The translations under genes and the position numbers were made by a program. A DNA stretch of 64,000 nt from an uncultured Lachnospiraceae bacterium (lineage in GTDB: Bacteria; Bacillota; Clostridia; Lachnospirales; Lachnospiraceae): positions 1-64,000 of the forward strand of contig CALWES010000005.1 in the NCBI GenBank assembly GCA_944377405.1, written 5' to 3'. Of this stretch, positions 29,297 through 33,375 are shown one piece after another; positions within the stretch are counted from its first letter, which is position 1; each line of letters opens with the position of its first letter. Under the pieces are notes generated by a model. That model did not search any database. It had not been told where the DNA came from and was given only the letters and a program-made list of their open reading frames with translations.

Positions 29297-29506
29297 CTAA
29301 ACCTTTTGGTACTCTGAAATAAGTTCCTCTGTCAGATAATCATCACTCATGCAATGAAGATCAGATACACCTTCGCTCATGAAACGATAGGTTTCCGAGT
29401 GATAAAAGAATTCCAGTGCATCACTTAAAGAAATATGCTCTTTTTTCGAGAAATTTTCAATGAGCCGGACATATTTTTTTTGCAGCAGGATAGGATTGGC
29501 GGTCAA
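29297..29506 (-). CDS. Small helical protein of the DUF3791/DUF3990 module
   Basis: 69 residues, acidic and helical (LLQKKYVRLIENFSKKE, LSDALEFFYHSETY, ISDLHCMSDD-like GVSDLHCMSDDYL). I have seen such short proteins next to DUF3990 genes; the exact family is uncertain, perhaps DUF3791-related. Its start overlaps the DUF3990 stop by 4 bases and it ends 3 bases before MATE, so it is translated from the same mRNA. Possible antitoxin or accessory of the ADP-ribosyltransferase-like protein. Confidence 0.65.
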   Translation of the reverse strand: MTANPILLQKKYVRLIENFSKKEHISLSDALEFFYHSETYRFMSEGVSDLHCMSDDYLTEELISEYQKV

Positions 29507-29976
29507 AGCTTTTCACTCCCTTCATAATGCAGATACTCATCCAGAGCTTTTTGAGTTCGAAAACATATTTGCAAATTTGGCTTTTCATAACGCAAGCGTC
29601 GAAGTGCTTCTGCTTTATCAATGAGGTGATCAAAATACAGCTCGACTGTATTGAAAACCTTATCATTAGCCACGCCGCCGACAACGATATCGTAATTGCT
29701 GGAGTCATTGCCGGTCCGGCAGCTCAGGATGAAATCGAGCCAGTCCTCAGAGTAAGAATCAAAAATCAAAGCCTCAAGTTCCTGATAAGCCCTTTCATCA
29801 AAGCGGTAACGGGAAACGATGCCATCTTTGCCCCGGCGCTTGAATTTTTCACACCACTTTACCGCCTGTTCATAAATGGGCGTTGTATAAAAACCGCGTC
29901 CAAAATCAACATTTGCCCGGGAGTGTGTTAGATCTGGAGTTGGGATGTCCAGATAAGAGCCGTGATATAAAATCAT
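29503..29976 (-). CDS. DUF3990 protein, ADP-ribosyltransferase-like fold
   Basis: 157 residues. Motifs of the family are visible: YHGS (His5), DFGRGFYTT (Tyr30), and YDIVVGGVANDKVFNTVELY (split around residues 95-114). His followed by Tyr at this spacing recalls the H-Y-E class of ADP-ribosyltransferases; the third catalytic residue (perhaps Glu112) is uncertain. Proteins of this kind are often toxins or modify host or phage targets, but no activity is shown here. It overlaps both neighbours by 4 bases. The stretch is more AT-rich than the flanks, compatible with acquisition by transfer. Confidence 0.72.
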   Translation of the reverse strand: MILYHGSYLDIPTPDLTHSRANVDFGRGFYTTPIYEQAVKWCEKFKRRGKDGIVSRYRFDERAYQELEALIFDSYSEDWLDFILSCRTGNDSSNYDIVVGGVANDKVFNTVELYFDHLIDKAEALRRLRYEKPNLQICFRTQKALDEYLHYEGSEKL

Positions 29977-30212
29977 AGTTGGATACCCCTTTCTTTCATG
30001 AGGCTGATAATGTCATCTACGATGTAATCCTTGCTTTGCGTATGAAGGATGTCATATTCCGGTATGATGTAATCATCCAGAATGCTGCTTTCTTCTGTCA
30101 GGGCACGGTAAACTTCTTCTCCATGCTTTCCCAGCCGGATCGCGATATTTTCTATGCAGAATACGACAAACTCCAGTTCTGCGGTATTTTTGATCTTAGC
30201 GCTGTCTGACAT
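29973..30212 (-). CDS. DUF3791 protein
   Basis: 79 residues. The pattern FVVFCIENIAIRLG, VYRALTE, ILDDYIIPEYDILHTQSKDYIVDDI (read across residues 11-70) matches the DUF3791 family, which occurs in front of DUF3990. AGGAGG precedes ATG 30212, and the promoter with a palindrome lies just upstream. First gene of the operon, hence a candidate antitoxin and autoregulator, though it has no obvious DNA-binding motif. Confidence 0.75.
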   Translation of the reverse strand: MSDSAKIKNTAELEFVVFCIENIAIRLGKHGEEVYRALTEESSILDDYIIPEYDILHTQSKDYIVDDIISLMKERGIQL

Positions 30213-30318: not shown

Positions 30319-30378
30319 TTGACATTTTCCCCGCCTTGCTATAAGATAAATAAGATTATAAGGGCCGCTTACAGCGGC
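30319..30378 (+). promoter_or_regulatory. SCIFF promoter and leader hairpin
   Basis: TTGACA (30319-30324), 17 bases, TAAGAT (30342-30347); a TATAAG at 30340 is the alternative -10. In the leader GCCGCT-TAC-AGCGGC (30364-30378) forms a short hairpin that may protect the mRNA. Confidence 0.6.
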
Positions 30379-30413: not shown

Positions 30414-30563
30414 ATGGAAAGAATCAAGACCATCGAGACTCGTAATCTGTGCGAAAGCGTATGCAGCGGCGGATGCGGTGAGTGCCAGACCTCCTGCCAG
30501 TCAGCATGCAAGACAAGCTGCGGAGTTGCAAACCAGCCTTGCGAGAACAAGAACCGTAAGTAA
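30414..30563 (+). CDS. scfA: SCIFF ranthipeptide precursor with eight cysteines
   Basis: 49 residues. The core CGECQTSCQSACKTSC is the almost invariant centre of SCIFF (six cysteines in forty-five residues). The canonical six are Cys21, 24, 28, 32, 36 and 43; two more, Cys13 and Cys17, lie in the leader-side stretch NLCESVCSGGC. The residue after Cys36 is Gly37 where many SCIFF peptides have Thr. Ribosome binding site GGAGAG before ATG 30414. The peptide is modified by the radical SAM enzyme encoded next, forming thioether cross-links; its role in the cell is poorly known, with quorum sensing or metabolic control proposed for clostridia. Confidence 0.95.
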   Translation: MERIKTIETRNLCESVCSGGCGECQTSCQSACKTSCGVANQPCENKNRK

Positions 30564-30583
30564 TTACGAAACAAATGATTTGG

Positions 30584-30611
30584 CGCCGCCTGGAACAAGG
30601 CGGCGTTTTTT
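30584..30611 (+). terminator. Attenuator between SCIFF precursor and maturase
   Basis: CGCCGCC (30584-30590) pairs with GGCGGCG (30599-30605) around an 8-base loop, then six T. As no promoter follows before the maturase start, read-through must supply maturase mRNA, giving much more precursor than enzyme. Confidence 0.85.
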
Positions 30612-30637
30612 CGTCAATCAAGCATTCGGAGGAAAAC

Positions 30638-32014
30638 ATGCATCATCAGTATAAATTGAATGGCTACAACATCGTTCTGGATACCTGCAGCGGTGCGGTC
30701 CACCTGGTGGACGACGTGGCCTATGACATCATCGGCCTTTACCAGGACCATACCCCGGAGGAGATCACCCGGATCATCCTGGAGAAGTACCCGGACCGGG
30801 AGGACGTGACCCCGGAGGAGATCGCAGCCTGCATCGAGGACGTTACATCCCTGAAGGAGCATAAGCAGCTCTTTACCCCGGATACCTATGAGCCAATTGC
30901 GGGAGAATACAAGAACCGCAGCAACGTGGTGAAGGCCCTCTGCCTTCACGTGGCCCATACCTGCAACTTAAACTGCAGCTACTGCTTTGCAAGCCAGGGC
31001 AAGTATCACGGAGACCGGGCCCTTATGACCCTTGAGGTGGGGAAGCGGGCCATCGATTTTCTGATCGAGCATTCCGGAGACCGGAGAAATCTGGAAGTGG
31101 ATTTCTTCGGCGGAGAGCCCCTTATGAACTGGGAGATGGTGAAGCAGCTGGTGGCCTATGCCAGAAGCATCGAGAAGGAGCACGGGAAGAACTTCCGTTT
31201 CACCCTGACCACCAACGGCGTGCTGCTGGACGACGAGGTTATCGACTTCTGTAATAAAGAGATGCACAACGTGGTGCTGTCCCTGGATGGCCGCAAGGAG
31301 GTCCATGACCGTTTCCGGAAGGACTATGCGGGACACGGCAGCTATGACGTGATCGTGCCCAAGTTCCAGCGCTTTGTGGAAAAGCGGGGAGACAAGAGCT
31401 ACTACATGCGGGGAACCTTCACCCATTACAATACGGACTTTACCAATGACATCTTCCATATGGCGGATCTGGGCTTTACGGAGCTCAGCATGGAGCCGGT
31501 GGTCTGCGACCCCTCCGATCCCTGCGCCCTGACGGAGGAGGATATGCCGGTGCTCTTTGAGCAGTACGAGATCCTGGCAAAGGAGATGCTCCGCCGCCAC
31601 AGAGAGGGCCATCCCTTTACCTTCTATCACTACATCCTGGACCTGAAGAACGGCCCCTGCATCTATAAGCGTATCACCGGCTGCGGAAGCGGTACGGAAT
31701 ACATGGCAGTGACCCCCTGGGGAGAGCTTTTCCCCTGTCATCAGTTCGTGGGAGACAATGCCTACAGCCTGGGAAATATCTGGGATGGGGTCACCAACAC
31801 GGAGGTCCAGGAGAAGTTCCGTTCCTGCAACGCCTACTCCAGACCGGAATGCAAGGACTGCTGGGCACGGCTTTACTGCTCCGGAGGCTGCGCTGCCAAC
31901 AGCTACCATGCCACCGGATCCATCCAGGGCGTATACAAATACGGCTGCGAGCTCTTCAAGAAGCGGATCGAATGCGCCATCATGCTGCAGGCAGCCCTCA
32001 GCGCGGAGGAATAA
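30638..32014 (+). CDS. scfB: SCIFF maturase, radical SAM/SPASM thioether-forming enzyme
   Basis: 458 residues. N-terminal peptide-recognition region (residues ~1-90), then the SAM cluster motif C109-NLN-C113-SY-C116, a TIM-barrel with FFGGEPLMNW, and a C-terminal SPASM domain (CGSGTEYMAVTPWGELFPCHQF, CKDCWARLYCSGGC split over ~residues 350-430) that holds two auxiliary [4Fe-4S] clusters. It abstracts a hydrogen from the precursor and joins a cysteine sulphur to carbon. GGAGG precedes ATG 30638. Directly downstream of its substrate gene. Confidence 0.95.
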   Translation: MHHQYKLNGYNIVLDTCSGAVHLVDDVAYDIIGLYQDHTPEEITRIILEKYPDREDVTPEEIAACIEDVTSLKEHKQLFTPDTYEPIAGEYKNRSNVVKALCLHVAHTCNLNCSYCFASQGKYHGDRALMTLEVGKRAIDFLIEHSGDRRNLEVDFFGGEPLMNWEMVKQLVAYARSIEKEHGKNFRFTLTTNGVLLDDEVIDFCNKEMHNVVLSLDGRKEVHDRFRKDYAGHGSYDVIVPKFQRFVEKRGDKSYYMRGTFTHYNTDFTNDIFHMADLGFTELSMEPVVCDPSDPCALTEEDMPVLFEQYEILAKEMLRRHREGHPFTFYHYILDLKNGPCIYKRITGCGSGTEYMAVTPWGELFPCHQFVGDNAYSLGNIWDGVTNTEVQEKFRSCNAYSRPECKDCWARLYCSGGCAANSYHATGSIQGVYKYGCELFKKRIECAIMLQAALSAEE

Positions 32015-32019
32015 AAGGA

Positions 32020-33375
32020 ATGAAAACGCCGATCTGGGATTTTGTCCGCAGCTATGGGGACAGCGGGATCCAGCGCCTGCATATGCCGGGACATAAGGGC
32101 AGAGGCCCCCTTGGATTTGAACGTTTTGATATCACGGAGATCACCGGGGCGGACGACCTGTCGGCCCCGGATGGGATCATAGAAGAAAGCGAGAGGTATG
32201 CCGGAGAGCTGTTTGACAGCCGGCATACCTTTTACAGTACCGGAGGAAGCTCCCAGTGCATCAAGGCCATGCTTTACCTGGCCCTGCTCCACAGGAAGCC
32301 GGGGACGGATCTCAGGATCCTGGCGGGCCGGAATGCCCACAAGGCCTTTATCCAGGGCTGCGGTCTTCTGGGGCTGGAGCCGGTATGGCTGTGGCCGGAG
32401 AAAAGGGACAGCCTCTGTGCCTGCGAGATCTCTCCGGAGGGCCTGCGGAAGGCCCTGGAACAGGAAAAAACGCCGCCCCTTGCGGTTTACATCACAGCTC
32501 CGGACTACCTGGGAGGAAGCCCGGACATGGGAGCCCTGGCACAGGTGTGCCGGGAGGCGGGGGTCCCCCTGCTGGTGGACAATGCCCACGGCGCCTACCT
32601 CCGCTTCCTTCCGGAGACGCTTAAGAAGAAGGGATTTCGTCATCCCCTGGAGCTTGGGGCCTCCATGTGCACGGACTCCGCCCACAAGACCCTGCCGGTC
32701 CTGACGGGCGGGGCTTATCTTCATATTGCAAAGGGGGCAGAGGCTCCCTATGAGGCGGAGGCAAGACAGGCTCTGGCCCTCTTCGGGTCCTCCAGTCCCT
32801 CCTATCTGATCCTTTCCTCCCTGGACGCCTGCAACGGGGCCCTGGCGGGGAAGCTTCCGGATCAGATTTCTGCCTGCGCGGAGGCCCTTACGGAACTGAA
32901 GGAGGAGATTCTTGCCCGGGGGATCCCGGTGCGGCCGGGAGAGCCCCTGAAGCTTACGGTGGATGCAGCCGCCATGGGACATGGGGGAGAAGAGCTGGCA
33001 GACCTCCTTCGGGAGCAGGGTGTGGAACCGGAGTTTGCGGACCGGGACTTTCTGGTGCTTATGTTCTCCGGGGATACGGAGGAGGCCGCCTTCCGGGCAG
33101 TCCGGAAAGCCCTTTTGGGGATCGTCCCCGGCAAGGCCAGGCCCCATCTTTCCCTGCCGGAGGGAGGACAGGCGGTCATGAGTCTTCGGGAGGCCATGCT
33201 GGCGCCCCAGGAGACGGTCCCCGTAAGCCTTGCGGCAGGCCGGATCTGCGGCGGCATCACCGTTTCCTGTCCCCCTGCCATTCCCCTTGTGGTGCCGGGG
33301 GAGCTGATTTCGCAGGAGGCTGCGGAAAGGCTCCTGCAGTACGGCCATGAGAGAATCCCGGTGTTCTTACCTTAA
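32020..33375 (+). CDS. PLP enzyme of the Orn/Lys/Arg decarboxylase fold
   Basis: 451 residues. N-terminal HMPGHKG and the PLP site DSAHKTLPVLTGG (Lys223), with Asp187 and His190 in VDNAHGAY, identify the group I decarboxylase family; it is shorter than biosynthetic arginine decarboxylases, like Firmicute YaaO/SpeA homologues. The product could be a polyamine precursor (agmatine or cadaverine), but specificity is not readable. Starts 5 bases after the maturase stop, with GGAGGA as binding site, so it is co-transcribed with the SCIFF genes. Followed by a separate promoter. Confidence 0.85.
   Translation: MKTPIWDFVRSYGDSGIQRLHMPGHKGRGPLGFERFDITEITGADDLSAPDGIIEESERYAGELFDSRHTFYSTGGSSQCIKAMLYLALLHRKPGTDLRILAGRNAHKAFIQGCGLLGLEPVWLWPEKRDSLCACEISPEGLRKALEQEKTPPLAVYITAPDYLGGSPDMGALAQVCREAGVPLLVDNAHGAYLRFLPETLKKKGFRHPLELGASMCTDSAHKTLPVLTGGAYLHIAKGAEAPYEAEARQALALFGSSSPSYLILSSLDACNGALAGKLPDQISACAEALTELKEEILARGIPVRPGEPLKLTVDAAAMGHGGEELADLLREQGVEPEFADRDFLVLMFSGDTEEAAFRAVRKALLGIVPGKARPHLSLPEGGQAVMSLREAMLAPQETVPVSLAAGRICGGITVSCPPAIPLVVPGELISQEAAERLLQYGHERIPVFLP

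Follow-up and report, generated by a model that had tools for sequence, protein, structure and literature searches.

A SCIFF precursor peptide with a glycine at residue 37 is encoded in a 64,000-nucleotide stretch of DNA (the window) from an uncultured Lachnospiraceae bacterium, and Thr37 is one of the two residues reported as the acceptor of the thioether cross-link in CteA of C. thermocellum. This raises the question of whether the peptide is a genuine SCIFF precursor and whether its cross-link has to differ from that of CteA. In gut Clostridia, SCIFF peptides belong to the most widespread peptide natural products, and their structure is disputed (Thr34 or Thr37); their function is barely known, with a role in quorum sensing and sporulation described for C. 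beijerinckii. The best explanation of the data as a whole, to which a probability of about 0.75 is assigned, is that the gene encodes a functional SCIFF (ranthipeptide) precursor of a distinct Gly37-Val/Ile38-Ala39 subtype, with a bond that is most likely formed between Cys32 and Thr34.

The precursor gene scfA (positions 30414..30563, forward strand) is an open reading frame whose 49-residue translation is MERIKTIETRNLCESVCSGGCGECQTSCQSACKTSCGVANQPCENKNRK, followed by a stop codon. In profile searches its product scores 77.6 bits with TIGR03973 (cut-off 50) and 75.7 bits with PF13165 (cut-off 27). It has eight cysteines (residues 13, 17, 21, 24, 28, 32, 36 and 43) and a glycine as residue 37 (codon 30522..30524, forward strand; threonine in the other subtype), which agrees with the first-pass annotation, where Gly37 and the presence of Cys13 and Cys17 beyond the standard six cysteines had been noted. 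The six standard cysteines (21, 24, 28, 32, 36 and 43) have the CGEC...C...C...C...C spacing of SCIFF peptides, within about the last 45 residues. The same annotation had left room for an alignment to reveal a shifted numbering, and no shift is found: Cys32 is the fourth of the standard six, and in the Thr37-type relatives Thr37 comes directly after Cys36. This is in agreement with the mention of 'Cys32, the fourth cysteine' and of 'Cys21' of CteA in PMC8326336, when the two peptides are compared by description. A shifted numbering is therefore ruled out as the source of Gly37, since the other subtype has its threonine in the same place. A sequencing oddity is also ruled out, because a near-identical peptide is found in a congener (G018) and Gly37 occurs across many genomes, and the peptide is not a chance frame, because Gly37 peptides of this kind recur next to a maturase in many other genomes. 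The window peptide truly belongs to the SCIFF family and is ordinary in itself. A PDB search with the precursor gave no match. A promoter-like site at 30319-30347 was dismissed, as shuffled sequence yields about as many such sites in the scan. A DUF3990 and DUF3791 gene pair (29503-30212, reverse strand) is divergent from scfA.

The maturase gene scfB (30638..32014, forward strand) starts 74 bases after scfA and encodes a radical SAM/SPASM protein of 458 residues, which scores 772 bits with TIGR03974 (cut-off 425). Its nearest solved relative is CteB (PDB entry: 5wgg), of which ScfB is a full-length homologue, with residues 1 to 452 aligned (E 9e-167), and it therefore has the recognition, radical SAM and SPASM domains. 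The cysteines of the radical SAM CX3CX2C motif (109, 113 and 116) are conserved, as are the seven cysteines of the SPASM region (341, 349, 367, 405, 408, 414 and 418). In the gap between scfA and scfB there is a terminator-like hairpin followed by a T run (30582..30612, forward strand; 10 pairs, 7 of them GC), and a similar element is found in this gap at 108/133 Gly37 loci versus 21/55 Thr37 loci. The hairpin is probably a leaky terminator, yielding more precursor than enzyme, and such a putative terminator would often be part of the Gly37 cassette.

The first-pass annotation started from Thr37 as the cross-linked residue of CteA and held that the bond of the window peptide must differ. This premise corresponds to the in vitro result, as both earlier in vitro studies reported a Cys32-Thr37 bond, whereas on co-expression of CteA and CteB in E. 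coli the bond is formed between Cys32 and the gamma carbon of Thr34, according to the reviews PMC8172795 and PMC8326336; the discrepancy with the in-cell result is described as unresolved (PMC8326336). A Cys-Thr S-Cgamma bond is also reported in PMC11002830. In a ranthipeptide, the cysteine thioether is attached to a carbon of the acceptor other than its alpha carbon. The donor Cys32 and the acceptor Thr34 of this revised assignment are both present in the window peptide (Cys32-Lys33-Thr34 codons, 30507..30515, forward strand). Since the CteA bond is reported to have been reassigned to Cys32-Thr34 and the window peptide has Thr34, Gly37 alone forces no new chemistry. Thr34, which had also been named as a possible alternative acceptor, was thus rightly considered, but the claim that the cross-link must differ is not supported, as this residue is present and invariant. 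It is proposed that the leader (about residues 1-18) is bound by ScfB via its RiPP recognition element and that ScfB most likely forms the thioether from Cys32 to the Thr34 gamma carbon, the position of the bond being assigned here as in CteA made in cells. Gly37 would be neutral for this chemistry, and residue 37 would mark the subtype, having diverged a single time along with the maturase.

The conservation of the core was assessed in 177 deduplicated precursor-maturase pairs. Cys32, Thr34, Ser35 and Cys36 are invariant in 177/177 pairs. Thr34 was demanded by the fetch patterns of many of these loci, the loci fetched by HMM and most of those confirmed by tblastn being free of this demand. 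Residue 37 is glycine in 125 pairs, threonine in 52 and nothing else, and Ala39 accompanies Gly37 in 125/125 precursors. In a class-wide check sample of 123 transcribed rows, collected with a pattern in which positions 34, 35 and 37-39 were left free, Thr34 and Ser35 are always present (123/123), with threonine as residue 37 in 108 and glycine in 15. On the maturase tree, precursor residue 37 changes once, with support 100, versus about 45 changes when the labels are shuffled; these shuffles show only that the residue-37 label is clustered. Many near-fixed columns separate the maturases of the two types; among them are 108 and 112, which lie next to cysteines of the cluster in the radical SAM motif region, as well as 328, 330 and 332. 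As judged from the sequences, Gly37 is a clade trait that defines one maturase clade. The first-pass annotation had asked whether Gly37 and the extra cysteines are such traits; this holds for Gly37, with its one change on the tree, and Cys13 is common in the clade, but Cys17 is rare. As the peptide is a genuine SCIFF and Gly37 a clade feature, the puzzle of the missing Thr37 is mostly answered.

The Gly37 type is also widespread. In a sample of 291 genomes of the class Clostridia, 195 have the Thr37 pattern and 53 have the Gly37 pattern; two loci of the Gly37 group (L173 and L179) are chance matches in other frames and were discounted, which leaves about 51/291, the chance count being taken from the loci inspected. 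In the family sample, SCIFF is found in 272/299 genomes, and of 24 matches to the Gly37 pattern five are by chance in other frames (L148, L157, L159, L161 and L165), leaving 19. We read the Gly37 type as an undescribed, widespread and overlooked SCIFF subtype with a candidate third component. The apparent novelty lies in the whole that the subtype forms, with its precursor signature, maturase clade, gene context and candidate PLP partner, and in the evidence from natural variation that it offers for Thr34.

Because Thr34 is invariant in both subtypes and Thr37 is not, natural variation favours Thr34 over Thr37 as the acceptor. A large and lasting clade that lacks Thr37 and never lacks Thr34 is a natural experiment favouring the revised structure; with Thr37 indispensable as acceptor, the existence of such a clade would be difficult to account for. 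The argument draws on variation and does not prove the chemistry. The invariance of Thr34 could instead reflect recognition, as most of the core is also invariant. The literature search found no mass spectrometry on any Gly37-type peptide. An unlikely alternative is that the bond is truly Cys32-Thr37 in the Thr37 types and that the Gly37 maturases have moved it to Thr34, Ser35 or the alpha carbon of Gly37. The agreement of both in vitro studies on Thr37 and the separation of the Gly37 maturases as a clade, with their many near-fixed differences, are consistent with such a move. Against it stand the contrasting conservation of the two threonines and the in-cell assignment of the CteA bond to the gamma carbon of Thr34; in addition, SCIFF maturases group with enzymes that form bonds to beta or gamma carbons, and glycine has neither.

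The codons of Cys13 (30450..30452, forward strand) and Cys17 (30462..30464, forward strand) both precede that of Cys21. Cys13 occurs in 76/125 Gly37 precursors versus 0/52 Thr37 precursors, and Cys17 at four loci of the set (the window genome, its congener G018, L143 and L195). In the structure of CteB with residues 1-21 of CteA, the leader lies on the recognition domain and Cys21 is near the auxiliary cluster (PMC8326336), a placement that would put the extra cysteines in the leader; they would probably lie outside the rings of the mature core. In the recognition domain of the maturase, Cys17 (30686-30688) and Cys65 (30830-30832) are found in many Gly37-type maturases and in none of the Thr37 types. 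That the extra leader cysteines have a function of their own, for example as a disulfide or metal ligand of Cys13 with maturase Cys17, or in added rings, is doubtful, and is judged somewhat less probable than a displaced bond. Such a function would fit the occurrence of maturase Cys17, which is present in 88% of the Gly37 pairs with leader Cys13, in 22% of those without it and in 0% of the Thr37 types, and the C13-X3-C17-X3-C21 series of the window genome, which prolongs the CX3C spacing of the core. However, Cys13 changes only about three times on the tree, so that its association with maturase Cys17, with two to three independent pairs, is inseparable from shared ancestry; equally strong associations are seen at other maturase columns, and Cys13 lies in the leader. 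The coupling of these two cysteines is suggestive yet is not claimed here, in view of just two to three independent contrasts.

The candidate third component is encoded five bases past the scfB stop (32020..33375, forward strand). This protein of 451 residues resembles the PLP-dependent Orn/Lys/Arg decarboxylases, with an OKR_DC_1 domain (PF01276; 117.8 bits, cut-off 27) and the PLP-binding SxHK motif in the form SAHKT, and is a full-length relative of the Orn/Lys/Arg decarboxylase family protein of PDB entry 2x3l (E 3e-22). The PLP lysine motif is kept in 17/17 of the decarboxylase-like neighbour genes found by BLAST. Such a gene is beside scfAB at 59/73 named Gly37 loci and, in a second Gly37 set with wider flanks (20 further loci and seven congeners), at 18/27, versus 0/36 Thr37 loci at which the maturase was detected (flanks of about 5 kb); the Fisher p of the latter comparison is 2e-9, for loci that are non-independent through clade membership. 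The neighbourhood of the Thr37 types is of another kind, with a SecD/SecF-family gene near scfB in 29/40 loci and with YajC and TGT also recurrent, and this secDF/yajC neighbourhood is not shared by the Gly37 cassette. Because Gly37 is a single clade, the link of the decarboxylase-like gene to residue 37 counts as one evolutionary event. In the genus of the window, SCIFF and its maturase are found in exactly the same 8/25 genomes (of G000-G024), and the decarboxylase-like gene is found in 7/8 of the SCIFF-bearing versus 0/17 of the SCIFF-less genomes (p 2e-5); as the SCIFF lineages of the genus branch off at three different places in the maturase tree, this co-occurrence is probably not one event.

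The Gly37 cassette usually travels with this decarboxylase-like PLP gene, whose product is probably a partner in the pathway. It is tentatively suggested that Gly37 SCIFF is made by a three-gene ranthipeptide pathway, in which the PLP enzyme may act on the peptide or supply a partner (a decarboxylated amine or a modified residue), giving a product unlike that of CteA. A literature search found no paper tying SCIFF to a decarboxylase. If true, function and product could be tested directly by way of a PLP partner gene specific to the subtype. It is a serious possibility, although short of probable, that the gene plays no part in the SCIFF pathway and stands there by chance or as a hitch-hiker. 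Orn/Lys/Arg-decarboxylase-like genes are common in Bacillota, and roughly one in three unselected Gly37 loci is without the gene, as would suit a chance neighbour. A mere neighbour is harder to reconcile with its being the sole frequent neighbour at the Gly37 loci, where the other flanking genes vary, with its flanking scfAB on one side or the other, usually in the same orientation and in many cases no more than tens of bases from scfB, and with its restriction to the SCIFF-bearing genomes of the genus.

When compared with the characterised SCIFF systems, CteA/CteB (thermocellin, C. thermocellum) and Tte1186a/Tte1186, the window shares the precursor architecture, the core spacing, Cys32 and Thr34. 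It differs in having Gly37-Val38-Ala39 (Thr37 there), two extra leader cysteines, a maturase outside the Thr37 group and an adjacent decarboxylase-like gene. Other Gly37 SCIFF systems, such as those of Faecalibacterium prausnitzii (L101), Neglectibacter timonensis (L089) and many Oscillospiraceae, have the same Gly37-Ala39 core and maturase clade and, in most, the same adjacent decarboxylase-like gene, but Cys17 is absent in nearly all and Cys13 in some. Freyrasin (PapA/PapB) shares the ranthipeptide logic, the Cys-rich repeats and the X3 spacing and differs in its six Cys-X3-Asp bonds to beta carbons; PapB belongs to a different maturase family, and ScfB of the window scores 277 against the PapB-family cut-off of 340.

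SCIFF, near-universal in the family, is absent from 17/25 species of the window's genus, and the eight species that have it carry three different maturase lineages, a pattern that points to the cassette having been lost or gained repeatedly. At three loci (L160 in G139, L171 in G325 and L195 in G479), one open frame contains two full tandem SCIFF units (leader-core-leader-core); these are apparently double precursors that are processed by one maturase.
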